Shown here: positions 34,485 through 52,216 of the stretch, piece after piece
Layout: each line of letters begins with the position of its first letter
Numbering within the stretch: the first letter of the stretch is position 1
DNA from: Microcaldota archaeon
GTDB lineage: Archaea > Micrarchaeota > Micrarchaeia > Micrarchaeales > CABMGC01
Direction: 5' to 3'
NCBI GenBank assembly: GCA_028867135.1
Contig: JAGWGW010000007.1
Span: 1-53,278, forward strand
DNA length: 53,278 nucleotides
Notes under the pieces: model-generated
The model's input: only the letters and a program-made list of their open reading frames with translations
Databases searched by the model: none
Told to the model about the DNA's origin: nothing
Made by a program: the position numbers and the translations under genes

Positions 34485-36557
34485 TTGAAAATTACATACT
34501 TCAAAGCTAAAAATTTCCTGTCTTTTGGCAAGGATGGAATAGAGATAAATCAATTTAATGACTTCAATACAATAGTAGGACCTAATAACTCTGGAAAAAC
34601 AAACCTCTTGAGAGCTTTTCAATTTGTTGAACAAGCAATGTTCTATAAAAATGACAATATAGATTCATATCATCATGAATTCGATCTATCAACCCCATTT
34701 GAAATAGAATTAGGTATAAAACTAGACAAAGATGAAATCTCCGCAATAACTAATTTCCTCATTTGTTCTACATGTGGTGCTGCCGCGAGTTCGCCAGGTA
34801 TCGAACTTAACATGCTTAACGAATTGAAGAGTGTAATTGCAAATAATGCTAAAAAGTTGTTTAATTCTCTTTTCAATGGCGAAATTAGAATCAAAATTAA
34901 CGCTGGAAATATCGGATATCCGATCGAACTTAAATTCTGCCTTAACAAAAACAATAAAAACATTATAATTGAAAGTTATGGAAATCTTTATATAGATGGA
35001 TCAAGACGACCTAATAAAGGAAGCAACATTTTACAGGAAATTATAAACAAAATAAACGCAGTTTCTAATGTTTTAACTATAAGCGAAGATAGATCAAACG
35101 AATATATCGTACAACGAAAACAAGAAATCTCCCAATTAGTTTCAAACTTAAATGTAAATTGGTTCGTTAGCGATATAGGCGACCAAGATAGTAATAGACT
35201 CAGCATAGATGTTCCTGGTTTTCGTACCACAAGTAATATACTAAAAGGAGTTGAAAGTGCAGTTCGTGAATTTAACAGTTTTCTATTAAACAGAAGTATA
35301 AATGAAGAAGATTGGAATTTAAGTAAATTACTAGGTATGATATATACCACCTCGCTTATTCATGTATCCGATGTTCGATTGTCACCTACCAAAATAACTA
35401 ACGATAATGATGTACCTTATAACACAAACTCATTCAATGGTTCTGAATTAGCTCTATTTCTATTTAGATTGAAAAATAGTACAAGCCTTTCAGATAGAAT
35501 GAGATATAAAGAAATACAAAATAAATTTGAAGATTTCACAGATTCTCAATTTGATGTGGTACAAAAGCTAGTAAGAGAACCTGTTAACACAAATGAACTT
35601 GAGTTTATACCTTCCAAAGAACTTTTGAATACACCTACTATCCAAAGTCCAGATATTAACTTATTGGGCGTATCTAGAAGAAATAGTATTAAAACATATT
35701 ATGAAATAGGGATACACATTAATTCCAGAACAACTTCTTCTTATTCTATACCTTTAGAACTTTCTTATGCTGGTTCACTAAGCATTTTACTTTTACTTAC
35801 TGCAGTAATAAATATGGCAGATAAAGTTATTTTGCTCGATGAACCGGCTCAAAACTTACATCCAAGTAAACAAAGGGAATTAGCACATTTCCTAAATGAA
35901 CCCCATGGGAATCAAATATTTCTTATAACACATTCTCCTTATTTTGTCAACCCTAAACTCCCCGATAAAATATTAAGATTTGAATTAACAAAAAATGGTA
36001 CAACTATACACAAACTTAAGAATACTAAAAGACAAGTTAAAAATGATATAATAAAAGAAATGATTCGTTCTCCTAAAATTATTTCAATCCTGTTTATGCG
36101 AAAAGTTATCTTCGTGGAGGGAGCCGATGAAGAAGCGGCATTGCCAATATGGATTGAAGATTGCGATAATACTTTACAGTTAGATCGCAAAAATATTCAG
36201 ATATTCGATGCCGGTGGAGATACACGGTTGATAACTCATAAACACATTGCAGAAGATTGGAACATTCCTTACAGACTTATTTGCGATAGGAAGACTGTGA
36301 AGAAATCTAAAGATCGGAAAAATTTCGCCAAATTTATAAAGAACGAAGAAAAATTAGGTAGGGCATACATATATCCATATGATGATTTTACAGAAATGTA
36401 TCCAAAGCAAATATTAAAGAAATATGAAAAACAATTTTCAAATAGCGGTTGGAAGAAGAATCCTACAATTGCAAGATTAATAGCTGAAGAAAGCGACCCA
36501 CCGCTTGAAATTGTTGAAAAAATTTACCCCTTTATTAAAAAGTTTGTTAATGAGTGA
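34485..36557 (+). CDS. OLD-family ATP-dependent nuclease (AAA-ATPase plus TOPRIM)
   Basis: The 690-residue protein begins with an SMC/ABC-like ATPase: Walker A VGPNNSGKTNLL (residues 32-41), a long insertion with a coiled, helical part, the signature LSYAGSLSILLLL near 425, and Walker B VILLDEPAQNLHP (D452-E453). A TOPRIM nuclease domain follows: VIFVEGADEEAALPIW (about E545) with later acidic residues (FDAGGD, ICDRKT). OLD proteins, including GajA of the Gabija system, cut DNA and protect against phage. No UvrD-like GajB follows here. It starts with TTG (34485), as no ATG fits; base use is about 30% GC. It is the only gene here clearly tied to nuclease defence in the left island. Confidence 0.88.
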   Translation: MKITYFKAKNFLSFGKDGIEINQFNDFNTIVGPNNSGKTNLLRAFQFVEQAMFYKNDNIDSYHHEFDLSTPFEIELGIKLDKDEISAITNFLICSTCGAAASSPGIELNMLNELKSVIANNAKKLFNSLFNGEIRIKINAGNIGYPIELKFCLNKNNKNIIIESYGNLYIDGSRRPNKGSNILQEIINKINAVSNVLTISEDRSNEYIVQRKQEISQLVSNLNVNWFVSDIGDQDSNRLSIDVPGFRTTSNILKGVESAVREFNSFLLNRSINEEDWNLSKLLGMIYTTSLIHVSDVRLSPTKITNDNDVPYNTNSFNGSELALFLFRLKNSTSLSDRMRYKEIQNKFEDFTDSQFDVVQKLVREPVNTNELEFIPSKELLNTPTIQSPDINLLGVSRRNSIKTYYEIGIHINSRTTSSYSIPLELSYAGSLSILLLLTAVINMADKVILLDEPAQNLHPSKQRELAHFLNEPHGNQIFLITHSPYFVNPKLPDKILRFELTKNGTTIHKLKNTKRQVKNDIIKEMIRSPKIISILFMRKVIFVEGADEEAALPIWIEDCDNTLQLDRKNIQIFDAGGDTRLITHKHIAEDWNIPYRLICDRKTVKKSKDRKNFAKFIKNEEKLGRAYIYPYDDFTEMYPKQILKKYEKQFSNSGWKKNPTIARLIAEESDPPLEIVEKIYPFIKKFVNE

Positions 36558-39811: not shown

Positions 39812-42709
39812 TTGGATGTTGATTAAACCTTACCAAGGTTTTGATCAAACTTTTACCAAAAGTTTGTTGTAAGGATTTAGTTGCGGTGCGCTCACAGCTC
39901 GCCGAAGCTCGCTGCTTACACGCCCGCCCTATCAAAGGGATGTAATATCCCCACCCTAAATGTCTCGTTTCGGATGCGGCTTCGTCCTTAGATGCTTTCA
40001 GGGCTTATCCGCTTAGCGCGTGGCTACCCGGCAGTGCCTTGCGACAACCGGTCCACTAGAGGCGCCGAAATCTCGTTCCTCTCGTATTAAAGATTTCTTA
40101 TCCTCTGACACTAACACTCCCAGTAGTTGCTACCGTACTGTCTCGCGACGTACTGAACTCAGCTCATGTATCTCTTTAATGGACGAGCAGTCCAACCCTT
40201 GGGGGCTCCTGCACCCCCAGGATGAGATAAGCCCATATCGGTGTATCAAACGGCGGGGTCTATGTGAACTATCACCCGCCACGAACCGGTTACCTCTAGA
40301 GTAACTTGTTTGACAGCTTGGTGCCCCATTAAAAGAGCATCCAACGTTCGTTAAGTCGCTGTTTCCAGTCTGCGTTCCCCGCTTTTCGGAACACAGTCAG
40401 CCCTGCATTTGCCTTTGCGCTTCACGCTGGCTTTCCAAACCAGCTAAGCAGAGCATCGATCACTTTCGTTTCTTTATCGAAAGCAACCGCCCAGTCCAAC
40501 TATCCATCTGCAGTTGTCCTATTTCTAGTAAGCCATGTAAAAAGCGAAGAGTGGTGTTACATTGACGCTCAGCCAAGGCCGGAACCCGGCTTCGACGCTC
40601 CCACTTACGCTGTGCAACGCCCTTCACACGACAGCAACAGACTATAGTCAAGTTTCATAGAGACTTCGCTACCCACTGAGAGAACGTGGCATGTACACCA
40701 CGTAGTAATTTCACCAGGTTCCTAGTTGGGACAGTGGGACAGTCGTTACGCCCTTCATGCAAGTCGCCTATTAAGCGACGAGGTATTACGCTACCTAAAG
40801 AGAGTCAGAGTTACTCCCGCTCTTTGCTAGGGCTTAGGCCGGTTGAAACCGGTTTTCGCTGACTAGCGGTGAGCAGGCGTCACCCGCTGTACTCAGCCTT
40901 ACGGCTGTGCGGCGAGTTGTGTTTTTGATAAACAGTCGCTGTCCCCTTGATAATGATATCTGCATTTCCTAAACGCAGACATAGCTTGTAGATAACATAC
41001 GCTACTATTTGGCCGATTTCCCTAACCAGGATTCCCCTGACACGACTTGGCTTTTTCAGCCAGCAGCACCTGTACTGGATCTAGGTACGAATTTGTACGA
41101 TCGTTGCGTATTCCCTTTTCACTGGACCAGGAATTCGGACATTGACAGTTCATTTAGCTGCTTCTCCTCATAATGAGACTCCGCAGCCGTTTGCACCTGA
41201 TTGCAGTCCTATCCCCAGACGTCAGAAATACACCTTGTGTTGCCACGCCTACGTACAAAGCGCATGAATATTAACATGCTTCCCTTTCGAGCTATGGTGA
41301 TTGGCCTAGCTCTTAGGATCGGCTAACTCCCAGCTGACGATCATTTCAAGGAAAACCTTGTGCTTCAGTCGAAATGGATTCTCACCATTTTATGCTGTTA
41401 CTTATACCAGGATTTTCTCAACTGCACATTCCACATGAGCTCAAGCCCATGCTTCTAGATGTGCAGCACGCCCTCCTACCTCCTATTCTGGATCATGGTT
41501 TCGGTACCTAGTTTAGCCCCGTCCATCTTCAGAAAGCACGATCTCAATCGGTACGCTATTACGCGTTTTTTAAAGGATGGCTGCTTCTGAGCCTACCTCC
41601 CGACTGTCTAAGACCATGCCCTCCTTCGATACACTCAACTAGGATTTGGGGACCTTAACCATGTAGACCGTCTTTACGGCATCGTGACGCTAGCTTACCC
41701 AACGTCGCCGACTCCCGGGGTCTACGCAGCATACGCATTCGGAGTTTGACAAAGGGACGAGGTTTTTCAACCTCATAACCCTAAATCGGTCGCTCTACCG
41801 CGCATGCAAGCTCGCCCGAGGCTATCCTAAAGATACTTCGGAGGGGACCCGCTATTGCCAAGTTCGATAGGTCTATCGCCCCTACTCGCAGCTCACCCAA
41901 CAGGACATGCCATGACAGGTTGCGGACCTCCACCGATCGTAAAATCGGCTTCGTCCTGGCCGCGATTAGATCACATTGGCTTCGGGTCGAATCTGGGTGA
42001 CTTAGGCGTTTTCACGCCCTGCGCCTCATTGCTTGCGCGCATTCGCTTTCACTACGCATGACTGGCATGCTTGCCACACAGATGCACTCCCTGGCTCTTG
42101 CTTCGAGAAGAAAGATATGATATTAGTCCCTTTCCTTCGTGCCGGCATTACTACCGGCGACTTCTGGAACATTCATTCCTTCCACACCATACCTTCTCGT
42201 AACCACCTAGTTTCAGATCTTTGCAATCCCATACGTATGGGTTCTTTTCAGCTTTCGCTCGCGCTACTTGTTCGCTATCGGTCTCCAGCCAATATTTAGG
42301 GTTGGGGTTTAGTGCCCCCGTGTTCGTGCGACGTACTCAGGCCGCGCTACTCATTCCGGCATATCTAAAATTGCTACGCTTACGAGGCTGTCACTCTCTG
42401 TGGCGGTTTTTTCCAAAACCTTCAACTCGCAATCCTAGACTAAGCCGACCACATCTACCAATATTTGCACATTGGAATTCGGTTTGCCCTCCTTGCCTTT
42501 CGCTCGTGTTACTCAGCAAATCTCTTTTGATTTCTCATCCTGCGTCTACTAAGACATTTCAGTTCGACGCGTTGGCTTACAGCACTATTCATACTGTATG
42601 ATTCGGAAATCCCGGGTTCAAAGGCTGACATGCGCCTACCCCGGGCTTATCGCAGCTTGCCACGTCCGTCATCGCTGCTGGAGCCAAGCCATCCCCTAGG
42701 TGGCTTATA
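39812..42709 (-). rRNA. 23S ribosomal RNA
   Basis: The minus strand carries a complete archaeal 23S of about 2.9 kb. Recognisable 5' sequence includes AGCCACCTAGGGGATGGCTT (near 42700). The 3' half has the peptidyl-transferase and sarcin-ricin regions (complement of CTAGAGGCGCCGAAATCTCG, with AGTACGAGAGGAAC-like strand near 40060-40090). I see no intron; the length is that of an uninterrupted gene. A processing stem flanks it. Neither 16S nor 5S is nearby, so the rRNA genes are unlinked, as in several DPANN and Thermoplasma-like archaea. Exact ends are estimated. Confidence 0.95.
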
Positions 42710-42710
42710 A

Positions 42711-42733
42711 AATCTTGACAAGCTCACTTCTCC
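42711..42733 (-). other. 5' arm of the 23S processing stem
   Basis: On the minus strand this arm reads GGAGAAGTGAGCTTGTCAAGATT and pairs with 39784-39807 to form a stem of about 21 paired bases. A leader hairpin GCCGCA-atca-TGCGGC (42742-42757) lies just outside it. Confidence 0.75.
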
Positions 42734-42744
42734 TCAAATCAGCC

Positions 42745-42978
42745 GCAATCATGCGGCATCACAATTGTAATCATGGTCAATCGATCGTAGAAACTCAGGA
42801 GATGGCATATGCTATCTCCCTTACATTCTTCATCAAGCCGTTTTAAAACAAGCTCTCAAAACACGAAGCCTCTACAAGCTCATGCTGGCCATAACTGCAC
42901 CAGAATTGATAATGCATTAATCTTTATAAAGCTTCTTCGAAAGGCTGTGTCAATAAGGCTAAGCCTGATTCGAAAGGA
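42745..42978 (-). promoter_or_regulatory. 23S promoter and leader
   Basis: There is no gene between the 23S stem and vapC. A strong TATA box (minus-strand AAGCTTTATAAAGATT, 42919-42934) would start the pre-23S about 170 bases upstream of the processing stem. The plus-strand 16-mer AATCTTTATAAAGCTT here is repeated exactly at 45421-45436. The leader has a GCCGCA/TGCGGC hairpin at 42742-42757. Confidence 0.55.
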
Positions 42979-43425
42979 TCACTTCAGATACACCGAATCA
43001 AGACCTTCCTTCTTCGAAGCCTTGTATAAGTTTTCGTCTCCTGTAAAGAGCCTGATGGAGCCAGACTTGCGGCATGAGGTAATCTGCAAGGCGTCGAATA
43101 TGTAGATATGATGCCTGACCACATATTGCAAGGAGTTAATAACCAATTCATCGTCAACGGATACGATCTCTACGGATCCTGAGTTCTTCATGCGTGCAGT
43201 CTCATCTGCGAAGGATTTGACTATCGACTCCTCTTTGAGCTTGTTCTTTCTTTCATATTTGCCCAGCACTCCAGTGACCTCACCTATATTAAGGATGGAG
43301 AAGCATATGTTGTGCTCTCCTATTTGAGCGTCATTGTATACGCTGTCTATAGCATCAGATCCCTCCTCTGGGATGTAGCGCTTGACGATAGCGCTAGTAT
43401 CCAAGTATACGCTTCTCTCTGGCAT
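42979..43425 (-). CDS. vapC: PIN-domain ribonuclease toxin (VapC)
   Basis: This 148-residue PIN protein should cut RNA, probably tRNA or rRNA. The acidic active-site residues are present: VYLDTSAIVKRYIPEEGS (D9), SILNIGEVTGVLGKYE (Glu), IYIFDALQITSCRKSG (Asp) and LFTGDENLYKASKKEG (Asp). The start overlaps the end of vapB by 32 bases, and GGGAGATGAGGG lies before it. It is encoded right beside the 23S promoter. Confidence 0.86.
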   Translation of the reverse strand: MPERSVYLDTSAIVKRYIPEEGSDAIDSVYNDAQIGEHNICFSILNIGEVTGVLGKYERKNKLKEESIVKSFADETARMKNSGSVEIVSVDDELVINSLQYVVRHHIYIFDALQITSCRKSGSIRLFTGDENLYKASKKEGLDSVYLK

Positions 43426-43684
43426 CCCTCATCTCCCTTATCACTTTTGCACTGCCGAATCCCTTTTTGAGCGCCTTTCTCTGCTTCACCACGTCTTCAG
43501 AGCTTATGTACCCTTTCTTGAGCCCCAGCGCCTTGATAATGTCGTCCATGATATCCCTCTTTGTAAGCGAGATTATGAGCTCTTCAAACTCCTTGCTAAG
43601 CGTGGTCCCGTTCTTCGAAGCGTAGATCTTCCCCTCCCTTATCACATCCTCGTCCACAGAGAGGGTGAGCTTCGTGTTCTTCAT
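43394..43684 (-). CDS. vapB: VapB-type antitoxin
   Basis: The 96-residue protein begins NTKLTLSVDEDVIREGKIYA, a ribbon-helix-helix DNA-binding start, and ends with a charged helix (RKALKKGFGSAKVIREMRDA) that would wrap the PIN toxin. The start is ATG 43684; a longer frame to 43759 would cross the operator palindrome and TATA box. It is translated just before vapC, the normal toxin-antitoxin order. It should bind the 18-base palindrome at its own promoter. Confidence 0.8.
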   Translation of the reverse strand: MKNTKLTLSVDEDVIREGKIYASKNGTTLSKEFEELIISLTKRDIMDDIIKALGLKKGYISSEDVVKQRKALKKGFGSAKVIREMRDAREKRILGY

Positions 43685-43689
43685 TGTAT

Positions 43690-43720
43690 CATACGTATAT
43701 ACGTATGCACGTATAAATAC
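43690..43720 (-). promoter_or_regulatory. vapBC promoter with 18-base palindromic operator
   Basis: CATACGTATATACGTATG (43690-43707) is a perfect 18-base palindrome between the TATA box (minus-strand GTATTTATAC, 43711-43720) and the vapB ATG at 43684. It covers the expected transcription start, so VapB or VapBC binding would repress the operon. Few sites in the window are this symmetric. Confidence 0.72.
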
Positions 43721-43759
43721 CTTTCGCTTGCCACAGCCATCTCGCTCTGCGATAAGCAT

Positions 43760-43928
43760 ATATTAAGATATATAATTATATACTTTAGTATTATTGACCG
43801 TTAAAAGCTTCTTCGAATGGCACTTCCCTTCCAGGACAAGCACATTGGCATCTCCCAAGAGCCTGCGCCTGGCAAAGGTTTTTATATGTATTGACTAATA
43901 TTGATATATTATACAATAAGTGTATTAA
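43760..43928 (+). promoter_or_regulatory. AbiE promoter region
   Basis: This gap holds a TATA box (TTTTTATATG, about 43880-43889), giving a start near 43908. Inverted arms ATATTGAT (43898-43905) and ATCAATAT (43941-43948, inside the first codons) flank it; AbiEi antitoxins are known to bind inverted repeats at their promoters. A 14-base string AAAGCTTCTTCGAA at 43804-43817 repeats one at 42928-42941. Confidence 0.45.
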
Positions 43929-44657
43929 ATGACTATATTAATCAATATAGACTCGCTGCCTTACGTCTTCAGAATCGGTTCCATTATCAAAACCTCGAAA
44001 GGAAGACTTACCAGAAGGAGGCTCGGATATCTTATAGGCAAATTGCTCGACGAGAAGAAGCTGCTGAAGATAGGCAACGGCCTATACTCGAAGGGGGGGA
44101 ATGTCTTTTACATAGCCTGTTACGTGTACAAAGGCTACATAGGACTTTCGTCTGCGCTGTATCTTCACGGGCTCAAGACAGAGGTGGAGGGAACAGTATA
44201 TGTGTGCACATCATCTCCAAGAAAGGGCATGCGGATTATGGACAGCATGTTGGTGCCTGTGAATATGTCCGGTTTACAGTACGGCACCACAGAGCTTGCA
44301 ATGGAAGAGAAAAGGGTGATGGTGTCTACATACCCCAAGACAGTATTTGACATGCTGGCAAAGCCCAGGTATGCGAACTACTTCGACATGTACAGAGCGC
44401 TGAACGAGAGGCATATGGAAAAAGAGGAATGGGATGAACTTCTCTACTACGCGAAAAGCTCTAGTACAACGCAGATCAGAAGGATTGGATACGCAATGGA
44501 GGGCATCGCACCTGGTCGGTTCACCGACGAGCTCCTGAAGCTCAGCGGCAGGAAGCCCGGAGCATCGTTCTTCTTCAGACACAAGGCCGTGAATTACAGC
44601 ATGAAATGGAAGCTGTTTGACGATCTTTCCGTCAGGAGGTGGCTCAATGCCGTATGA
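43929..44657 (+). CDS. AbiEi-family antitoxin and repressor
   Basis: The 242-residue protein has an N-terminal winged helix (SIIKTSKGRLTRRRLGYLIGKLLDEKKLLKIGNGLYS) and a C-terminal domain with YKGYIGLSSALYLHGLKTEVEGTVYVCTSSPRKGM. This is the layout of type IV AbiEi antitoxins and COG5340-type regulators, which repress their own operon and counter the nucleotidyltransferase toxin. The stop overlaps the start of the next gene by 11 bases. Confidence 0.8.
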   Translation: MTILINIDSLPYVFRIGSIIKTSKGRLTRRRLGYLIGKLLDEKKLLKIGNGLYSKGGNVFYIACYVYKGYIGLSSALYLHGLKTEVEGTVYVCTSSPRKGMRIMDSMLVPVNMSGLQYGTTELAMEEKRVMVSTYPKTVFDMLAKPRYANYFDMYRALNERHMEKEEWDELLYYAKSSSTTQIRRIGYAMEGIAPGRFTDELLKLSGRKPGASFFFRHKAVNYSMKWKLFDDLSVRRWLNAV

Positions 44658-45402
44658 CGTGAACATCGACCAGTTTGCGTTGCGTACGGGCATCAACGCC
44701 GATAGGCTTAGAAGGAACCTTGAGACATATCAGGCTCTAGCCGAACTCTTTCCGCTGCTGGAAGCGTCAAGGTGCAAGGTCGGTATGTTCGGCGGCACAG
44801 CCATTAACAAGATATACTTTGGAAAGGCGCAGCGACTCTCCTATGACATCGATATATTTGCCTACGACTATCAAAGGACTATAAAGATCCTGAAGGAGAA
44901 CGGAGCTTTTGCCAAGTATTCCGCAGCAGTGACCTGGAGCAGGAAGGTTACCGCTACGAAGATGTCTTTCAAGGATGTCATACTGGACGTCGTGGACGCA
45001 AAGAACATAGCCGAGCAACCTGCAAAGATGCAGGCCTTCGATCTGCTCTACTACATGGGCCAGCTGGTGCCGCCTGTTGTGGTGCCATCATACAGCCTTG
45101 AATATCTCCTGGCTCACAAGACTCTCGCAATGCTCGACAGGCATGAGATGAAGGATATATACGATATGTGGTTCGGAATACGGCTGATGAAGGAAAAGGT
45201 AGCATATTACAGGGAGTTAAGGAAGCTCGCAAAGCAGAGGAAGACGGAGGACCTTGCAGTCTACACGGACTTTCAGCTCAGGATAATGATATCGAACATC
45301 GAGTACTACAAGTACAAAAGGATAGAGGTAGTAAGTCAACCTGATACAGGCATAATGTTGAGGGAGATAAAAGCCTTTATGGACAGGCTGCTGGTTTCCT
45401 GA
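44647..45402 (+). CDS. AbiEii-type nucleotidyltransferase toxin
   Basis: The 251-residue protein has the nucleotidyltransferase core. The first motif is GMFGGTAINKIYFGK (about residues 47-60), then RLSYDIDIFAYDYQ with the metal-binding aspartates D67 and D69, and a later strand DVILDVVDAKN. AbiEii-like toxins (related to MenT) transfer nucleotides to tRNA or other targets. I choose ATG 44647: GGAGGT lies 6 bases before it and the overlap suits coupling. An upstream start at 44617 has no ribosome site. Confidence 0.82.
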   Translation: MPYDVNIDQFALRTGINADRLRRNLETYQALAELFPLLEASRCKVGMFGGTAINKIYFGKAQRLSYDIDIFAYDYQRTIKILKENGAFAKYSAAVTWSRKVTATKMSFKDVILDVVDAKNIAEQPAKMQAFDLLYYMGQLVPPVVVPSYSLEYLLAHKTLAMLDRHEMKDIYDMWFGIRLMKEKVAYYRELRKLAKQRKTEDLAVYTDFQLRIMISNIEYYKYKRIEVVSQPDTGIMLREIKAFMDRLLVS

Positions 45403-45406
45403 AATA

Positions 45407-45593
45407 TGAAGCCCCCATCAAATCTTTATAAAGCTTTTTAAATAGGCGTGCAATAAAGGGAACCACGTCAACAGGCTTTGTTTACAAAGTCTGACTTCTT
45501 AAACGCTTTTAGTACTTTTTAAACAGTTGGGCAATTTAACCTTAATTTATTAACATTCTTATTACTTTAATAACAATTAATGTGGGGGATTGT
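45407..45593 (+). promoter_or_regulatory. AT-rich boundary and promoter of the GHKL operon
   Basis: No gene is seen. The strong TATA copy AATCTTTATAAAGCTT is at 45421-45436, and a second TATA-like CTTTAATAAC (about 45565-45574) lies just before the first ATG. Base composition drops sharply here. CTTTG-TTTA-CAAAG (45476-45489) is a small hairpin. ACTTTTTAAACAG (45514-45526) is repeated exactly at 51349-51361, and ACGTCAACA at 45465-45473 recurs at 51385-51393. Confidence 0.4.
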
Positions 45594-45812
45594 ATGGCAA
45601 TAGACCAAGAGAAAGACGAGGGATGGAAAGAATTGGCTAAAAAGAAGAGAGATTCCATAGCGGAATGGAGGGAGGTTATGAACAAATGGCTGATAGAAAG
45701 TGATCCTATGAAAAGAGCTTCTCTAAGGAAACAGGAGGAGGAAGTTAGTGATAAGGTATTACAAGCAGACAAAGAATTGGATGCTTACGTTGAAAGCAAA
45801 GGAGGTTATTGA
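45594..45812 (+). CDS. small helical partner of the GHKL ATPase
   Basis: The 72-residue protein is highly charged and nearly all helical (QEKDEGWKELAKKKRDSIAEWREVMNKWL, then KRASLRKQEEEVSDKVLQADKELDAY). It has no known domain. The ATG at 45594 is chosen because TATA (about 45565-45574) stands about 24 bases before it. Its stop overlaps the ATG of the next gene by one base (TGATG), and a GGAGGT ribosome site lies in its last codons. It is thus coupled to the ATPase and is probably its partner or an inhibitor. Confidence 0.6.
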   Translation: MAIDQEKDEGWKELAKKKRDSIAEWREVMNKWLIESDPMKRASLRKQEEEVSDKVLQADKELDAYVESKGGY

Positions 45813-48295
45813 TGGATTTTGAGAAATATGGTAAAAAGGTAAAGAAGATTCCTGTAAGACTAAATTACAGAATTATAGAGCTATTTTCAGCAGGTCTCTA
45901 CTCTAGTCCAAATAAAGCTTTCGAAGAACTAGTAAGTAATTCATACGATGCATTTGCTAGTGAAGTATGTATATTCACACCGCAACAAATTACAAAAAAT
46001 AGCATGATAGTCGTCTGTGATAATGGCGATAGCATGAATATTGCTGAACTTAGAGACCTGTGGCAGATAGGAGAATCAAAAAAACCTTTGATGGAAGAAA
46101 AGAAAGGGAGACTACAAATTGGGCAATTCGGCATAGGTAAATTAGCTACTTATGTTTTAGCAGATAAATTGACTTATTTATGTAAGAAACAAGGTAAAAT
46201 ACATCTTGTCACCATGGATTACAATTCCATGCCGAAAAAGAATAAACAAAAGAAACTTAATCTGGATGTATTGCAAATAGACGAAGATAAAGCAGAGAAA
46301 CTGATTACAGAAGTACTTAAGGATTTTCCTTCACCAAAGATTACATTCAAATTATTTGGAGAAGGCGCAGTAAACACTTGGACATTTGCAATATTATCTG
46401 ATATAAAAGACAAAGGTAAAGAGATACTATCAGGAAGATTGAGGTGGATTTTTAGTACGGCTTTGCCTGTCAACCCTACTTTTAAATTAACCTTTAATAA
46501 CGATCCAATAGAACCTAGTAAATTATCAGGAGAAATATACAACACCTGGATCATAGGAAAGGACGATGCTGTAGCTAAAGCCAAAAATTATGCAACAGGT
46601 CAAAAAGATGATGTTTATTACGTTGATCTTTCTTCTTCAAATAAGATTCGTGGAGAGGTTACTCTCTATAAAGATACTTTGACAGGAGGAAAATCTTCAT
46701 CTTGGGGGAGAAGTCACGGAATCTTCTTAATGGTTAGAGGTAGATTGATTAATACTGAAAATCCACTTTTAAATGGCATGGAAGAACTGAATCATGCTGC
46801 ATTCAATAGGCTAAGATTTATCATACATGCAGATGATCTAAACACAGAATTGACCTCTGGAAGAGAGATGGTAAAAAGTACTAAGAAATATCGAGAGGTT
46901 AAGGAATATATAGAATCAACTTTTTATAAAGTAAGAGCATACTTCATTAAGAAAATAGAAGATGAACCAAAAGATACAATCTCGGATAAGATATTGAATG
47001 TTTCACCATTTTATTCAAAAATACCAATTTACGAGTCAGTTAAAAAGGTCTTCGAAGGAGATATTTCTGGACTTGCACTGACTACTACACCAAGTGATAT
47101 AAGTGAAGATCAAAAGAAGGATATTCTTGCAGCATTAGATAATGAGATAACAGATCCGAAAAGCCTACTTGTTAAGGATTATTCTTTGGATAATGATCTT
47201 GACGAAGACGATCCTATAGCTAAGTTTAATTTAACTTCTAGAAAAATAGATATTAATACTAAGCATCCATTCTATATTGCTTTCTTGTCTGAGTTCAAAG
47301 GAAAGACCAATTTGATGTTCAGCCTGATAGCTTCGAATGAGATATTCACTGAAGCTGCACTTATCGAGAAAGGAGTCGATGAACAGGTAGTTAGAGATAT
47401 TATCAAACGTAGGGATAATCTATTCAGAGAATTCAGCAGAGGTACGAAAAATAACATCTTTACTGCAACAAGTTTCCTAAAAAGCTCTTTGGCTGATGCC
47501 AAAAATCTGGAAAAAGCATTACACATGTGTTTTGAATGCCTAGGTTTTCAAGTTGAACCTATGGCTGGAAACGGCGAACCAGAAGGAAAAGCTACTGCTC
47601 GTTTAGGTGTGTGGAAAGATGGCAAGAACGAAAGTTATTCCTTCACATACGAAGCAAAAAGTACAAAAAAAGATAGTATAGATGCTGATGCTACTAAAAC
47701 TGGCGTTGTTAATATACACAGAAAAAAGAACAATGCAGATTATGCATTAGAAGTTGCGATTGATTATGAAGGCGCAGAGAATGTGGATAGTAATGCAAAC
47801 ACACTTGCAACAGATGATGAAGTCACTTTAGTACGTGCAAAAGACTTTTGGAGACTTATAATATGCTCTATTCCAAATAGACTTAATTTCGTAGATTTTA
47901 GAGACTTTCTTAAAACATGCAAAAAAGTTACAGAATCTGAAGCCTGGATTAACAAATTCTGTGATAATAAACCACAAAAATTACCTTACAAGGAGATACT
48001 TGAAGCAACATGGATAATAATGGATGAAGATCCCAAATCTGCTCCAACAATAGATACTGTTCGAATGAAGGCAGGAATAACTAAAGAGTTTACACCAACT
48101 CAGGTTACAGAGATGTTTAATGCTTTGCAGCATATGTTACCACAGTTGATTAATTTGGAAGGGAATAAGGTACGGATACTCATTCCACCAGACAAAATAC
48201 TTGAAACATTAAACGATATGATTGAAAAACAAGCTCCTCAAGAACTCAAAGATCAACTTGAAGGTGTTTTCAAGAGAAACCTAGATAAAGTTTAA
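45812..48295 (+). CDS. GHKL (Hsp90/MORC-like) ATPase fused to a PD-(D/E)xK nuclease-like domain
   Basis: This 827-residue protein begins with a GHKL ATPase: N-box FEELVSNSYDAF (E39-N43), G1 VVCDNGDSM (D70-G72) and G2 GQFGIGKLATYV (G104-G109). A transducer-like domain follows, then linkers to about residue 560. The C-terminal part (about 565-680) matches restriction-enzyme folds: CFECLGFQVEPMAGNGEPEGKATARLG (E589/E591) then FTYEAKSTKKDSIDADATKTGVVNI (E614, K616). A charged helical end follows. The start is ATG 45812, 5 bases after GGAGGT. GHKL ATPases with restriction-type nucleases and methyltransferases are known from comparative work on MutL/MORC relatives in restriction-modification loci. 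Here the ATPase probably drives DNA recognition by the nuclease. It overlaps the methyltransferase by 4 bases, tail to tail. Confidence 0.8.
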   Translation: MDFEKYGKKVKKIPVRLNYRIIELFSAGLYSSPNKAFEELVSNSYDAFASEVCIFTPQQITKNSMIVVCDNGDSMNIAELRDLWQIGESKKPLMEEKKGRLQIGQFGIGKLATYVLADKLTYLCKKQGKIHLVTMDYNSMPKKNKQKKLNLDVLQIDEDKAEKLITEVLKDFPSPKITFKLFGEGAVNTWTFAILSDIKDKGKEILSGRLRWIFSTALPVNPTFKLTFNNDPIEPSKLSGEIYNTWIIGKDDAVAKAKNYATGQKDDVYYVDLSSSNKIRGEVTLYKDTLTGGKSSSWGRSHGIFLMVRGRLINTENPLLNGMEELNHAAFNRLRFIIHADDLNTELTSGREMVKSTKKYREVKEYIESTFYKVRAYFIKKIEDEPKDTISDKILNVSPFYSKIPIYESVKKVFEGDISGLALTTTPSDISEDQKKDILAALDNEITDPKSLLVKDYSLDNDLDEDDPIAKFNLTSRKIDINTKHPFYIAFLSEFKGKTNLMFSLIASNEIFTEAALIEKGVDEQVVRDIIKRRDNLFREFSRGTKNNIFTATSFLKSSLADAKNLEKALHMCFECLGFQVEPMAGNGEPEGKATARLGVWKDGKNESYSFTYEAKSTKKDSIDADATKTGVVNIHRKKNNADYALEVAIDYEGAENVDSNANTLATDDEVTLVRAKDFWRLIICSIPNRLNFVDFRDFLKTCKKVTESEAWINKFCDNKPQKLPYKEILEATWIIMDEDPKSAPTIDTVRMKAGITKEFTPTQVTEMFNALQHMLPQLINLEGNKVRILIPPDKILETLNDMIEKQAPQELKDQLEGVFKRNLDKV

Positions 48296-49008
48296 CTCTT
48301 CTGAAAAACTAGAACAATATCGTGCGATGGTTTAAGCAAATTATTCCATGCTAATTCTGCTAATACTACTCTTCCCTTATTAACTACACTTTTCGAGTGT
48401 TTTGTTATCTTTACTGCATAATCCCTGTATGTGAAATAGTTCTTCATAATATTATAAGTTTCAAAAGTTAGAGGAATACTTTTTCCATCCTTAATTTTAT
48501 CACCTATTAGTACACAAATATACCCCTCAGATTTTAGCACTCGTTTCATTTCTATAAATATCGCATGCAATTTAGCATAGAAATTATCCAGCGACATATT
48601 GCTTAAATCTTCTTCCTGTTGGGAGTATCTAACCATATTCCAATATGGCAAATGAATAAATATCAGAGATGCCCTATTATTAGCAATAGGTAGTTGCGCT
48701 GAATCTGCCTTTTGAATATCTGGTCTTATCGGACTAAGATCAAAAGCAAGACACTTTCTACCAAGTTCTTTGGATATATCCAAAGTTGTTCCTGAACCTG
48801 ACATACTATCTATGATGACATCACCTTTCTTCGAATATCTTAAAATGCATTGTCTAGATACTTGAGGGATACAATTGCCATGAAAAACGTGCGAACCAAA
48901 CCCTTCCTCTCTCGTTCCAAAGTTCCATACGGTAGTAAGTTCTAATCCCTCTTTTTCTTGATCTACAAGATTTTGTAGTTTTTTCCCTTTATTCTTCATT
49001 CCACCCAT
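48292..49008 (-). CDS. DNA methyltransferase (amino group, N4/N6 type)
   Basis: The 238-residue enzyme should methylate adenine-N6 or cytosine-N4 in DNA. SAM-binding motif I is VIIDSMSGSGTTLDISKELG (about residues 65-84). The catalytic motif IV reads IFIHLPYWNMVRYSQQ (about 117-132) where HPPYW or a D/N/S-PPY would be expected; the Leu for Pro change is unusual, though the Pro-Tyr core remains. The order of motifs and the size fit small type II enzymes lacking a separate target domain, so recognition may depend on partners. It is last in a minus-strand operon after two regulators. Confidence 0.82.
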   Translation of the reverse strand: MGGMKNKGKKLQNLVDQEKEGLELTTVWNFGTREEGFGSHVFHGNCIPQVSRQCILRYSKKGDVIIDSMSGSGTTLDISKELGRKCLAFDLSPIRPDIQKADSAQLPIANNRASLIFIHLPYWNMVRYSQQEEDLSNMSLDNFYAKLHAIFIEMKRVLKSEGYICVLIGDKIKDGKSIPLTFETYNIMKNYFTYRDYAVKITKHSKSVVNKGRVVLAELAWNNLLKPSHDIVLVFQKS

Positions 49009-49026
49009 AGTTTACCACATCCTTTT

Positions 49027-49275
49027 TCATACCTTCACAGGCTGTTTGTATTTTGTCCTATCAATTATCTCTGAATTGGCAATCCACCAATAGACTGCGT
49101 TCTTGTATTTCCCAGCGTTCAATACTCCAGTCTCTTGAAGTTGTTGAAGATAATGCAATGCGGTAGGTCTAGAGATTTCTGCTAATTCTGCTATCCTGTT
49201 TGTATTCAAGGCCTTGTTTGCGCTGTACAAAACTGCTATTATCCTCTTTTCTACAGGAAGATATTTTTTGGTCAT
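49027..49275 (-). CDS. winged-helix regulator beside the methyltransferase
   Basis: The 82-residue protein is a single winged helix: EKRIIAVLYSANKALNTNRIAELAEISRPTALHYLQQLQETGVLNAGKYKNAVYWWIA. The recognition helix and wing are clear, with a short basic tail. Small controller proteins in restriction-modification operons delay the nuclease until the DNA is methylated; this could play that part. It starts 4 bases inside the end of the AbrB-like gene and stops 18 bases before the methyltransferase. Confidence 0.75.
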   Translation of the reverse strand: MTKKYLPVEKRIIAVLYSANKALNTNRIAELAEISRPTALHYLQQLQETGVLNAGKYKNAVYWWIANSEIIDRTKYKQPVKV

Positions 49276-49529
49276 ATAAGATTCATCTCAAGCTTTGGTC
49301 GCTCTTTACTTTCAGGCAATGGCTTTGTGCAAACGAACGAAATGCTATTCTCTTGAGTTATGTGCATCTCCTGTGCTATCTCTTTTGGTATCCTGATCAG
49401 ATATTGTTTTTTGGTGAATGTGAGCTTTACCTTTCGCTTTATTTGATATGGTTGTAGATGGCCTAGGTCCTTCAACTCTTTTGGAATCTTCGATGTGTCA
49501 ACAGAGGGTAATTTGCTTAGTGCTTGCAT
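49272..49529 (-). CDS. AbrB/SpoVT-type DNA-binding protein
   Basis: The 85-residue protein has the swapped-hairpin AbrB-like pattern RKVKLTFTKKQYLIRIPKEIAQEMHITQENSISFVC (about residues 33-68). The flanks are short and charged. AbrB-type proteins act as transition regulators or antitoxins. The ATG at 49529 is chosen because AT-rich TATA sequence (about 49546-49553) lies 20 bases upstream. It opens the operon with the winged helix and the methyltransferase. Confidence 0.7.
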   Translation of the reverse strand: MQALSKLPSVDTSKIPKELKDLGHLQPYQIKRKVKLTFTKKQYLIRIPKEIAQEMHITQENSISFVCTKPLPESKERPKLEMNLI

Positions 49530-49678
49530 ATTCCTACTTTTAAACATAAATATCTAAGATAATATAGTATGAATATATATAAAAGAGTTTCTTTTTACGT
49601 CAAATTCCGTTCTTTGATAGTAAACCTTATAAAGGTAGTAATTTATGCAAAATAGTAGGAATTAATGAAAATGATATA

Positions 49679-50662
49679 ATGAGCGATATGACGCAATTGA
49701 AATCGAGGGTCATGCTACGGCCCACTTTCCAGCAGCAATGGCGAGAATATGATTATTCGCAGACAAACGAGAAAGATATTTTCCTGAAGCTGCTGCATGA
49801 TTTGTGTGGATACATTGAAGAGCCAGTTTATAGATTCGGTAGGCCAAGATTGTCTCTCTCAGATATGCTATTTTCAAGCGCATTGAAGGTCTATTCAGGA
49901 TTCTCGCTAAGGCGTTTTATGTCAGATATGAAGTTTGTAAAAGAGAAAGATTATATAAATACAGTCTGTTCGTACTCTTCAATAAGTAACTACATGAGAA
50001 GAGAAGACTTAACTCCGATTCTTAATCATCTAATAGGCCTAGCGTCACAACCACTGACTACAATTGAGGATAAGTTTGCTATAGATTCGAGTGGTTTCAG
50101 AACTACAAAGTTCAATGACTACATGAGGAAACGATATGAAGAGGAAAGAGAACATGAATGGATAAAATTACATATTTGCTGCGGAGTTAAAAGCCATATA
50201 ATTACAGCAGTCGAGATAAATATGCATGCAGATACTACTCAATTCATACCTTTGACTATGCAAACCAAAGAAAATGGTTTTGTGATCAAAGAGATGACAG
50301 CAGATAAGGCATATTGTGCAGGATCTAACTACGAGTATATAAGCAGTATAGGTGGCCTGCCGTTTATTCCATTCAAATCGAATGTGACAGGTAGATCCCA
50401 CGGAAGAGGTATTATATGGCGCAAAATGTTTCGATATTTTCAGCTAAACAGAGATGAATTCATGGAACATTATCATGCCAGGAGCAATGTGGAATCCACA
50501 TTTAATATGATAAAATCAAAATTCGGAGACCTTGTAAGAAGCAAGGACGACATAGCACAAGCCAACGAGCTTTTGCTTAAGGTGCTGTGCCACAATATCG
50601 TGGTGCTTATACACGAGAGTCTTGAATTAGGAATAGAGCCTGATTTTATTTATAGAAGATGA
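49679..50662 (+). CDS. DDE transposase (IS5/IS1182-like), full length
   Basis: The 327-residue transposase has the three acidic residues of the RNase-H fold: DKFAIDSSGFRTTKF (first D), KEMTADKAYCAG (second D) and HARSNVESTFNMIKSKFG (E). The N-terminus (GRPRLSLSDMLFSSALKVYSGFSLRRFMSD) is the usual DUF772-like part, and the frame is open and uninterrupted. I find no convincing terminal inverted repeats or target duplication by eye, and the next gene ends 3 bases after it. It may be a recent insertion whose ends I cannot place or a stable single copy. Confidence 0.85.
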   Translation: MSDMTQLKSRVMLRPTFQQQWREYDYSQTNEKDIFLKLLHDLCGYIEEPVYRFGRPRLSLSDMLFSSALKVYSGFSLRRFMSDMKFVKEKDYINTVCSYSSISNYMRREDLTPILNHLIGLASQPLTTIEDKFAIDSSGFRTTKFNDYMRKRYEEEREHEWIKLHICCGVKSHIITAVEINMHADTTQFIPLTMQTKENGFVIKEMTADKAYCAGSNYEYISSIGGLPFIPFKSNVTGRSHGRGIIWRKMFRYFQLNRDEFMEHYHARSNVESTFNMIKSKFGDLVRSKDDIAQANELLLKVLCHNIVVLIHESLELGIEPDFIYRR

Positions 50663-50664
50663 AT

Positions 50665-50931
50665 CTATATTCGCTCTATCTTGCTGAGTAGTTTTTTCCC
50701 TTTATCAGATAGACGATAAAAATTGCCATATTTGTTACCTGTTTTTATCGGCACTATTTCAATTAAACCATATTCGAGAAGCCTACTGAGATTTATGGAT
50801 AAGGTCTTTGAATTACGTACAGAATGCATCAAATCTGAAAATCGCAGTGGATTATCGCTTATAGCCTTCAATATCGTTATGCTATAACGTTTCATCATTA
50901 TGTGAAGAGTATCGTATTTATCATATTTCAT
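50665..50931 (-). CDS. winged-helix regulator (HxlR/MarR-like)
   Basis: The 88-residue protein is a compact winged helix: YDTLHIMMKRYSITILKAISDNPLRFSDLMHSVRNSKTLSINLSRLLEYGLIEIVP, then a wing KYGNFYRLSDKGKKLLSKI. This is the HxlR pattern. ATG 50931 is preferred; a frame to 51021 would run across the operator dyad and TATA. The dyad at 50984-50997 lies between this gene and the divergent small membrane gene. Confidence 0.72.
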   Translation of the reverse strand: MKYDKYDTLHIMMKRYSITILKAISDNPLRFSDLMHSVRNSKTLSINLSRLLEYGLIEIVPIKTGNKYGNFYRLSDKGKKLLSKIERI

Positions 50932-50983
50932 ACGCCTATTGTAGTACTTAAGGATATTCCGCTTTTCTAAAAGGAAAGCTAAG

Positions 50984-50997
50984 TGTAATGTATTACA
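50984..50997. promoter_or_regulatory. operator dyad TGTAAT-GT-ATTACA
   Basis: A perfect 14-base inverted repeat lies beside TATA-like sequences (TTTAAAT at 50998-51004, and AATTATACAC at about 51007-51016) in the divergent promoter of the winged-helix and membrane genes. Its minus-strand core TAATACATTA is identical to the core of the dyad at 51410-51425. Confidence 0.6.
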
Positions 50998-51035
50998 TTT
51001 AAATAACCAATTATACACCATTTATTGCGTTTGAT

Positions 51036-51335
51036 ATGAACAAGGGAACTAAGCCAGAAAACAAGGAAGAACCTTTCAAGATACCTATTTATTTCTACAT
51101 CCTGACTGGAATAATCATCCCTAGTTTTGCAGTCATGATATTTAGTCTCCTAGAAAGAAGGCAGCCGCAATCACAAAAAGATTATCCTAAATTGATAGCT
51201 ATTGGGGCGGTTCTTTTCATATTTGGCATCTTTTTCTATGCGCTTGGAGGCGTAATCTTTTTCTTTCTTGGGGAGATAATATTGCTTGTTGTATTACTAG
51301 TTCTTATTAGGTTGATCCAATTAATAACCAAGTAA
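51036..51335 (+). CDS. small two- to three-helix membrane protein
   Basis: The 99-residue protein has helices at about residues 15-34 (FYILTGIIIPSFAVMIFSLL), 51-71 (LIAIGAVLFIFGIFFYALGGV) and 72-96 (FFFLGEIILLVVLLVLIRLI). No family is recognised. It is divergent from the winged-helix regulator, with the dyad in between, so the regulator probably controls it. Confidence 0.58.
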   Translation: MNKGTKPENKEEPFKIPIYFYILTGIIIPSFAVMIFSLLERRQPQSQKDYPKLIAIGAVLFIFGIFFYALGGVIFFFLGEIILLVVLLVLIRLIQLITK

Positions 51336-51349
51336 TCTGAAATTTCAGA
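51336..51349. repeat. palindrome TCTGAAATTTCAGA at the island edge
   Basis: A perfect 14-base palindrome begins 1 base after the membrane gene's stop. It runs directly into ACTTTTTAAACAG (51349-51361), repeated at 45514-45526. It may be part of a boundary or an RNA hairpin at the end of transcription. Confidence 0.4.
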
Positions 51350-51409
51350 CTTTTTAAACAGAATTTGACTTTTTCAACAAAGCTACGTCAACACTTAAGC
51401 TTTAATATC

Positions 51410-51425
51410 TTATAATACATTATAA
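51410..51425. promoter_or_regulatory. operator dyad TTATAAT-AC-ATTATAA of the Doc operon
   Basis: A perfect 16-base dyad stands between TATA-like CTTTAATATC (51400-51409) and the antitoxin ATG at 51447, where the transcription start is expected. It shares the 10-mer TAATACATTA with the dyad at 50984-50997. Confidence 0.6.
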
Positions 51426-51446
51426 TCATCTATAAAGGATGATAAA

Positions 51447-51680
51447 ATGACCGAGGAGACAACAACGATACAGGTCACAAAAAGGGACAGCAGGCGCCTT
51501 GAAAGGCTGAAACTCCATCCTGCGCAGCCGATCAAGGAGGTCGTCCAGATGCTGCTGGATGACAAGGAATTCGATGATATCTCCACGACCATTGTAAGGG
51601 AGCGCTGGAAGATGGTTGTGGAATTATCGGACTTGAGGGGCCGCAGGAAGGAAGATGCCCTTAAGGCAGGATTTGCATGA
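51447..51680 (+). CDS. antitoxin partner of Doc
   Basis: The 77-residue protein has a TTTIQVTKRDSRRLERLKLHPAQPIKEVVQMLL segment, which has the shape of a ribbon-helix-helix or Phd-like DNA-binding start. A helical neutralising tail follows (LSDLRGRRKEDALKAGFA). Its last bases overlap the toxin ATG (ATGA), so the two are coupled. It is not the classical Phd sequence, so the family is inferred from the toxin. Confidence 0.66.
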   Translation: MTEETTTIQVTKRDSRRLERLKLHPAQPIKEVVQMLLDDKEFDDISTTIVRERWKMVVELSDLRGRRKEDALKAGFA

Positions 51681-52057
51681 AATACCTGACAGCCAAGCAG
51701 ATAATGGCCCTGAACCAGAAGATCCTGGACAAGCTGGAGCATTATCCGTCAAGGTTCCAATCCGACGTCAAAGAGGCTCTGGAAGAGATAATCGACAGGG
51801 CAAGGTCGGGCAACGACGCCAGCACCATAGCCGCAACATACCTGTACGAGCTTAACAGAAGGCACGTATTCAGCAGCGCCAACAAGAGGACTGCATTTCT
51901 GGCATCTGAGGCATTTCTCCGTGAGAACGGGATAAAATTCAACATAAGCGACGAGCAGGCAGCGAGCCTTTCAAAGGACGTAAGAAATGGCAAGTACACC
52001 TTTGAGGAGTTAAGGGATTATATAGAAAAGAATACAAGCCATGGGGCCACGGCATAA
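51677..52057 (+). CDS. doc: Doc-type toxin (Fic/Doc family)
   Basis: The 126-residue protein has the Doc form of the Fic motif, RRHVFSSANKRTAFLASEAFLRENG (starting at about H63), which phosphorylates EF-Tu in the phage P1 protein. The usual acidic or Asn residue before ANKR is Ser here, so activity may differ. The N-terminal helices (IMALNQKILDKLEHYPSRF) and the C-terminal EELRDYIEKN end fit the family. EF-Tu or its archaeal counterpart is the likely target. Confidence 0.84.
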   Translation: MKYLTAKQIMALNQKILDKLEHYPSRFQSDVKEALEEIIDRARSGNDASTIAATYLYELNRRHVFSSANKRTAFLASEAFLRENGIKFNISDEQAASLSKDVRNGKYTFEELRDYIEKNTSHGATA

Positions 52058-52216
52058 AGCGTGCCATTAAGGCTGTCGCTCTCCAGCCCTGGAGACTTCT
52101 ACGTAGCATTCAGGAAGTGAAGCAGTCAACCATGCCATACGGCGCGCACAGGACTGCCGGATATCCGACAACAGCCAAAGAGCATATTTAAATACGTTTC
52201 ACAGAAAGTTATATTC

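Follow-up and report, generated by a model that had tools for sequence, protein, structure and literature searches.

A block of five open reading frames (ORFs) lies on a 53,278-nucleotide stretch of DNA (contig JAGWGW010000007.1, hereafter the window) from a Micrarchaeota-like genome of about 0.96 Mb. The original prediction, made from the letters of the window, read the block as a restriction-modification (R-M) system built on a fusion of a GHKL ATPase with a nuclease, i.e., a small protein coupled to an 827-residue ATPase-nuclease that meets tail to tail a DNA amino-methyltransferase, the latter transcribed after an AbrB-like and a winged-helix protein. All five ORFs were present in this order (Table 1). 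The TGATG coupling of the small ORF to the 827-residue ORF was confirmed, with AGGAGGT just upstream. The ATPase and methyltransferase genes are convergent and their stops overlap by 4 bases; the AbrB-like and winged-helix genes also share 4 bases, and both lie 5' of the methyltransferase gene on the same strand. The block was rightly described as AT-rich and beside a transposase and toxin pairs: its guanine-cytosine content is 34–37% versus about 52% in the surrounding contig, and a DDE transposase and VapBC-like, AbiE and Fic/Doc genes are its neighbours. We propose, at a probability of roughly 0.86, that the block encodes a two-gene, Type II-like, ATP-using R-M system with a regulatory cassette. 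Domain identities, catalytic residues, fold, gene pairing and recurrence of the regulator pair are computed results; site specificity, ATP-dependent cutting, protection by methylation and regulation are inferred.

The 827-residue protein matched HATPase_c_3 in Pfam (expectation value (E) 7.8e-20), and its C-terminal half had no credible Pfam family by sequence. A scan of genome contigs returned 290 relatives, and the 80 best loci were retained; their hosts are Woesearchaeota, Micrarchaeota, Methanophagales, Methanoperedens, Bacteroidota, Clostridia, Planctomycetota, Actinobacteria, Chloroflexi, Proteobacteria and others. When residue conservation was counted in an alignment of 74 near-full-length homologues, E38, N43, D46, D70, G72, G104, G107, G109, K110 and R311 were invariant (74/74), in agreement with the claim that all GHKL ATPase motifs are present. 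The full-length AlphaFold2 model (predicted local distance difference test score (pLDDT) 87, predicted template modelling score (pTM) 0.54) had its best PDB fold match in MORC2 bound to DNA, with TRAP1, MORC3 and MORC4 close behind. The S5-domain stretch G303-IFLMVRG-R311-LI fits the MORC motif GhXhhpXXRhl at 10 of 11 positions, the polar position being hydrophobic here. We predict that the protein is a GHKL ATPase with MORC-like fold joined to a PD-(D/E)xK nuclease domain.

The nuclease domain was modelled in isolation (residues 548–724) with pLDDT 93.4 and pTM 0.89, and the model shows the helix-strand-strand-strand-helix-strand order of PD-(D/E)xK enzymes. All six fold matches with E <0.001 were chains of HindIII, FokI, Nt.BspD6I and AspBHI. 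By sequence, Mrr_cat was found in 24 of 70 nuclease-domain homologues, RE_HindIII and FokI_cleav_dom in a few. The catalytic residues initially named were E589, E591 and E614-x-K616. In the alignment of 74 homologues, K616 is invariant and position 614 is occupied by E in 38 and D in 36 sequences, position 591 is D in 69 and E in five, and E567 is kept in 72; E591 and E614-x-K616 hence stand, E589 is not a nuclease position, and E567 has to be added.

The 238-residue protein matched N6_N4_Mtase (PF01555) with 68 bits, far over the cut-off of 26.7, which agrees with its assignment as a DNA amino-methyltransferase. Its motif I precedes motif IV, with no inserted target-recognition domain. We built a methyltransferase profile from neighbours of ATPase genes and applied it to 86 loci with 1151 ORFs; after removal of three duplicate or near-duplicate records, 83 distinct loci remained. 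A methyltransferase adjoins the ATPase gene in 79 of the 86 loci (76 of the 83 distinct ones), which come from many phyla of Bacteria and Archaea. In terms of orientation it is downstream and co-directional in 46 of the 86, upstream and co-directional in 22, on both sides in four, convergent in six and divergent in one, and overlaps of 1–13 bases between the two genes are frequent. The profile matched 94 of the 1151 ORFs, at a rate of about 1% among ORFs that are not neighbours of the ATPase gene. Among the seven loci without a methyltransferase, some (L019 and L075; L-number labels denote single loci) end at a contig edge on one side.

Homologues without a methyltransferase are thus not the rule, and the C-terminal domain is modelled as a nuclease whose nearest solved structures are restriction enzymes; on both counts the R-M interpretation is supported. 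The core of the system is a two-gene pair of ATPase-nuclease and methyltransferase, and this pairing of a GHKL ATPase-nuclease with a methylase is widespread in bacteria and archaea. Conservation in 74 homologues and recurrent gene order go beyond chance.

Accessory genes differ from locus to locus. Downstream of the system, four bacterial loci (L022, L024, L033 and L045) have a helicase-like gene and then, overlapping it, a gene for 153–159 residues of no assigned family; the helicase-like gene of L024, the sole one tested against Pfam, contains a Z1 domain. In two Flavobacterium loci (L020, L038), a second, double-GHKL protein (741 residues) and a 407-residue protein follow the system, and as judged by description this pair resembles the HEF_HK and receiver pairs near R-M systems (PMC8011034). 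The ATPase was also found in a few viral contigs, alongside methyltransferases. One viral contig (L097, also labelled L014) holds the system together with a 5-cytosine methyltransferase, a 513-residue protein and a protein that looks Vsr-like by eye. No viral copies were found of the window methyltransferase or of the AbrB-like protein.

The two small genes ahead of the methyltransferase were suggested at the outset to control modification before restriction. The winged-helix protein matched HTH_IclR just above the cut-off, and the AbrB/MazE match of its partner was weak (E 0.066, under the family threshold; best among pair homologues 0.0065). A profile of three AbrB-like sequences, run against the 301 genomes of the phylum, detected the gene, besides the window, in G071, G084, G012, G198 and G291 (G-number labels denote genomes of the comparison set); a weak match in G286, partial and lacking an ORF, was discarded. 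In all five genomes the winged-helix gene overlaps the AbrB-like gene or starts within 5 bases of it. Downstream of the pair, G071 encodes two methyltransferases of the N6_N4 family plus one protein with a PLD domain. In G084 a small ORF intervenes before a RAMA-domain methyltransferase and a 284-residue protein. The pair is followed by an N6_N4 methyltransferase in G012 and, in G198, by an N6_Mtase protein, part of which is AlwI-like, along with a specificity subunit. A Methanoperedens genome, examined since it carries an ATPase homologue, has the pair upstream of a protein in which N6_Mtase is fused to Methylase_S, at a locus distinct from that of the ATPase homologue.

The pair hence stands ahead of a modification gene in six of eight pair loci, i.e., the window, four other Micrarchaeota and one Methanoperedens, and the R-M types differ. 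Its presence in front of modification genes in other R-M systems lends independent support to the proposed control of modification, and the pair is probably a portable archaeal R-M controller. We consider it an even chance that it was captured by unrelated systems (GHKL, PLD-nuclease, RAMA-methylase and Type I/IIG types) and sets modification ahead of restriction, as an archaeal counterpart of the bacterial C proteins; the restriction enzyme under its control here would be MORC-like and clamped by ATP. A serious alternative is linkage to mobile elements, because a transposase gene divergently adjoins the pair in five of the eight loci, two of these five being without R-M genes. In addition, no common operator was found upstream of the AbrB-like genes, locus-specific repeats being weakly suggestive in G198 and Methanoperedens only. 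That the pair is a component of insertion sequences, or of the island at large, rather than an R-M control element is possible at well below even odds: six of the eight pairs are followed on their own strand by a modification gene (after one small ORF in G084) despite only 1–3 PF01555 matches in each micrarchaeal genome with the pair at a modification gene, no transposase is nearby in G071, G084 and G012, and the transposases of the pair loci come from at least two families. A limited search of open-licence literature, including surveys of archaeal R-M and immune systems, gave no description of an AbrB-like and winged-helix R-M regulator.

In the mechanism that we propose, the 238-residue methyltransferase would methylate A or C at an amino group within a short site of the host DNA. 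The 827-residue enzyme may act as a GHKL dimer in which ATP binding shuts the N-terminal domains round DNA, as in MORC and MutL; this clamp is suggested by analogy because of the known behaviour of GHKL dimers. The closed dimer would bring two PD-(D/E)xK domains together and so license cuts in unmethylated DNA, and methylation of the target would prevent productive engagement. The AbrB-like and winged-helix proteins might bind the promoter of their own genes and determine when, or at what level, modification occurs. Their genes and the methyltransferase gene are probably on one message, as their spacing suggests, and the level of the pair would therefore be coupled to methyltransferase synthesis; the nuclease would be transcribed separately from the opposite side.

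Alternatively, the ATPase-nuclease might sense DNA ends, recombination structures or phage modification in a non-classical, Shedu-like or Type IV-like defence, where the methyltransferase merely spares self DNA or regulates expression. GHKL-nuclease fusions outside R-M, such as VcSduA with its Shedu nuclease (PMC12137116), and standalone paraMORC3 proteins with restriction-endonuclease (RE)-fold domains (PMC2292703) would fit this view. We regard it as unlikely, given that 76 of 83 loci have a methyltransferase beside the gene, that none of 70 nuclease-domain members matches DUF4263 and that the nuclease resembles HindIII, FokI and BspD6I.

The 72-residue protein contains 15 K/R and 18 D/E residues. 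It does not hold up as a required partner: it had no relative in any homologous locus, including those of another micrarchaeote (G121) and a woesearchaeote, and 98 relatives and 295 genomes of the phylum gave noise-level matches only. We therefore rejected a conserved-partner role and predict an accessory of local occurrence that may serve in dosage or assembly. An essential third subunit, e.g., for target recognition or dimer bridging in a new multi-subunit restriction complex, would be favoured by the TGATG coupling and the strong Shine-Dalgarno-like AGGAGGT, and is nevertheless improbable in view of this absence. Likewise, as the AbrB-like and winged-helix genes are missing from all other homologous loci of our set and the 72-residue protein is confined to the window among the sequences searched, a conserved unit of five genes is not supported, and a fixed five-gene set was rejected.

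Several observations weigh against a working R-M system with a dedicated regulator. The usual D at position 591 is replaced by E in the window protein (E in 5/74 homologues). Motif IV of the methyltransferase is an unusual HLPYW where relatives have HPPY, and the enzyme has no separate target-recognition domain. Two of the eight pair loci, that of G291 and a weak woesearchaeal match, are without nearby R-M genes; the G291 genome has zero PF01555 matches. Finally, the window and G121 share 82% identity in the methyltransferase versus 40% in the ATPase, a difference that one would not expect of tightly co-evolving partners but that is compatible with them.

This last point concerns a subtype of three loci, i.e., those of the window, G121 and the woesearchaeote, in which a short HLPYW methyltransferase is convergent to the ATPase gene, with a 4-base overlap in the window and the woesearchaeote and abutting genes in G121. 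The woesearchaeote shares 68% identity with the window methyltransferase and 55–56% with its ATPase. In the ATPase tree the three loci grouped weakly (74/90), and the window and G121 as sisters were rejected (p of the approximately unbiased test 4e-7). The methyltransferase tree was not resolved, and a grouping of window and woesearchaeote was not rejected (p 0.46). Partner swapping by topological conflict was dropped, as the methyltransferase tree does not reject the latter grouping; we therefore claim a strong rate difference alone. More distant methyltransferase relatives have HPPY or DSPY as motif IV. One of them (L109) adjoins a DpnII-family restriction enzyme, and DSPY relatives in L106, L107 and L108 are followed by a conserved 237-residue protein, possibly a restriction enzyme, which is split in L108. 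A decaying remnant, with an inactive HLPYW methyltransferase and a drifting ATPase-nuclease, would account for a motif IV that deviates from the common form (D/N/S)PP(Y/F/W), for E at 591 and for the much faster ATPase divergence, but is the least probable explanation, since HLPYW is kept in three genomes at 67–82% identity, all frames are open, every GHKL position and K616 are intact, and four other homologues also have E591.

The R-M system lies in an island that is absent from a same-genus genome, where the 23S upstream region (matching window 42324–42937) is about 110 bp from sequence matching position 52187 onward. The junction in that genome holds a 43-bp piece matching window 45421–45463; the piece is TATA-rich and possibly the 23S promoter. 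Imperfect 27-base direct repeats at 42919 and 45421, 85% identical, flank the two toxin-antitoxin-type pairs, and because of this repeat the VapBC/AbiE part and the R-M part appear to have arrived separately. Terminal inverted repeats of the insertion sequence were searched for, and none was convincing. Elsewhere in the window, an OLD-family nuclease with AAA and OLD-like TOPRIM domains is encoded by an AT-rich gene (34485–36557), a second possible defence gene.

Table 1 Features of the R-M locus and its surroundings (window coordinates)
Feature	Position	Strand	Basis or remark
72-residue highly charged protein, predicted orphan accessory, role unassigned	45594..45812	+	ORF, TGATG coupling
Predicted restriction enzyme: GHKL ATPase and S5-type transducer, helical middle, C-terminal PD-(D/E)xK nuclease	45812..48295	+	827 residues; Pfam, alignment, model
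GHKL and S5 (MORC-like) ATPase module, about residues 1–383, extent approximate	45812..46960	+	Alignment, fold match
Predicted PD-(D/E)xK nuclease domain, residues 548–724 (E567, E591, E614-x-K616)	47453..47983	+	Alignment, AlphaFold2, fold search
DNA amino-methyltransferase, 238 residues	48292..49008	-	Pfam N6_N4_Mtase
Winged-helix protein, second gene of putative portable controller pair	49027..49275	-	Pfam HTH_IclR
AbrB/MazE-like protein (swapped-hairpin type, weak assignment), first gene of putative portable controller pair	49272..49547	-	Weak Pfam
DDE_Tnp_1 transposase, divergent from AbrB-like gene, outside the system	49679..50662	+	Pfam; single copy in genome
Island: VapBC-like, AbiE, R-M system, insertion sequence, Fic/Doc	42938..52186	.	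Absent from same-genus genome
Archaeal 23S rRNA gene; island starts just upstream	39860–42720	-	
DUF6364 and PIN (VapBC-like), AbiEi and AbiEii; two toxin-antitoxin-type pairs	42979–45402		Pfam
Fic/Doc protein and small upstream partner, just inside right edge of island	51447–52057		

With its two-gene core, the locus is a simple representative of the MORC-type restriction systems, the proposed ancestors of eukaryotic MORC proteins, and the role of ATP-driven DNA clamping in restriction is therefore directly testable. The regulator pair is a concrete and testable candidate for the means by which new hosts among the ultra-small archaea survive the arrival of a mobile restriction enzyme. As no specific model for the system was found in the copies of Pfam, NCBIfam or PADLOC that we scanned, its members are easily annotated as mere ATP-binding proteins, and most plasmid matches carry just this annotation.

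Among known systems, the nuclease domains of HindIII, FokI and BspD6I are the nearest folds of the C-terminal domain, at marginal sequence similarity; to our knowledge these enzymes have no GHKL ATPase. BbrUII/HgiDII enzymes recognise GTCGAC and have a 5-methylcytosine partner. The GHKL region of the window protein (residues 22–404) aligns to the BbrUII/HgiDII model NF050001 of NCBIfam (E 9.4e-19), whereas the nuclease half does not. Scores were 67.4 bits for the window protein and 33–81 bits for the eight homologues scanned with PADLOC and NCBIfam models, and the cut-off of 550 was not reached. The PADLOC type II restriction models likewise match the ATPase stretch alone.

VcSduA, a GHKL domain joined to a Shedu nuclease and active against phage (PMC12137116), is similar in that one protein combines an N-terminal GHKL domain with a C-terminal PD-(D/E)xK nuclease in an anti-phage role. 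Because this protein acts against phage, a GHKL-nuclease architecture can serve defence. It differs in its DUF4263 nuclease and is presented, in the sections consulted, as a single-protein system without a methyltransferase partner. The controller pair can be likened by description to bacterial C proteins and RptR (PMC12255303), likewise small DNA-binding proteins encoded beside R-M systems. The layout of C proteins, a single helix-turn-helix protein ahead of the restriction gene, is not that of the window, where two archaeal proteins stand ahead of the modification gene.

Closest are the GHKL and MORC-like ATPases in R-M loci that were described in 2008, including paraMORC3 with a C-terminal RE-fold domain (Iyer, Abhiman and Aravind, PMC2292703), and the original prediction was right that such ATPases were already known from restriction loci. 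Compared by description, the window protein shares with paraMORC3 the GHKL and S5 ATPase, the C-terminal RE-fold domain with E-D-ExK and the link to a DNA methylase. Z1, found here in the helicase after a bacterial homologue, is also a domain label in Figure 2 of that paper. The methylases described there are mostly cytosine and rarely adenine enzymes, whereas the partner here is nearly always an amino-methyltransferase. Most loci of our set are two-gene loci without a helicase, and some paraMORC3 genes are standalone (PMC2292703).

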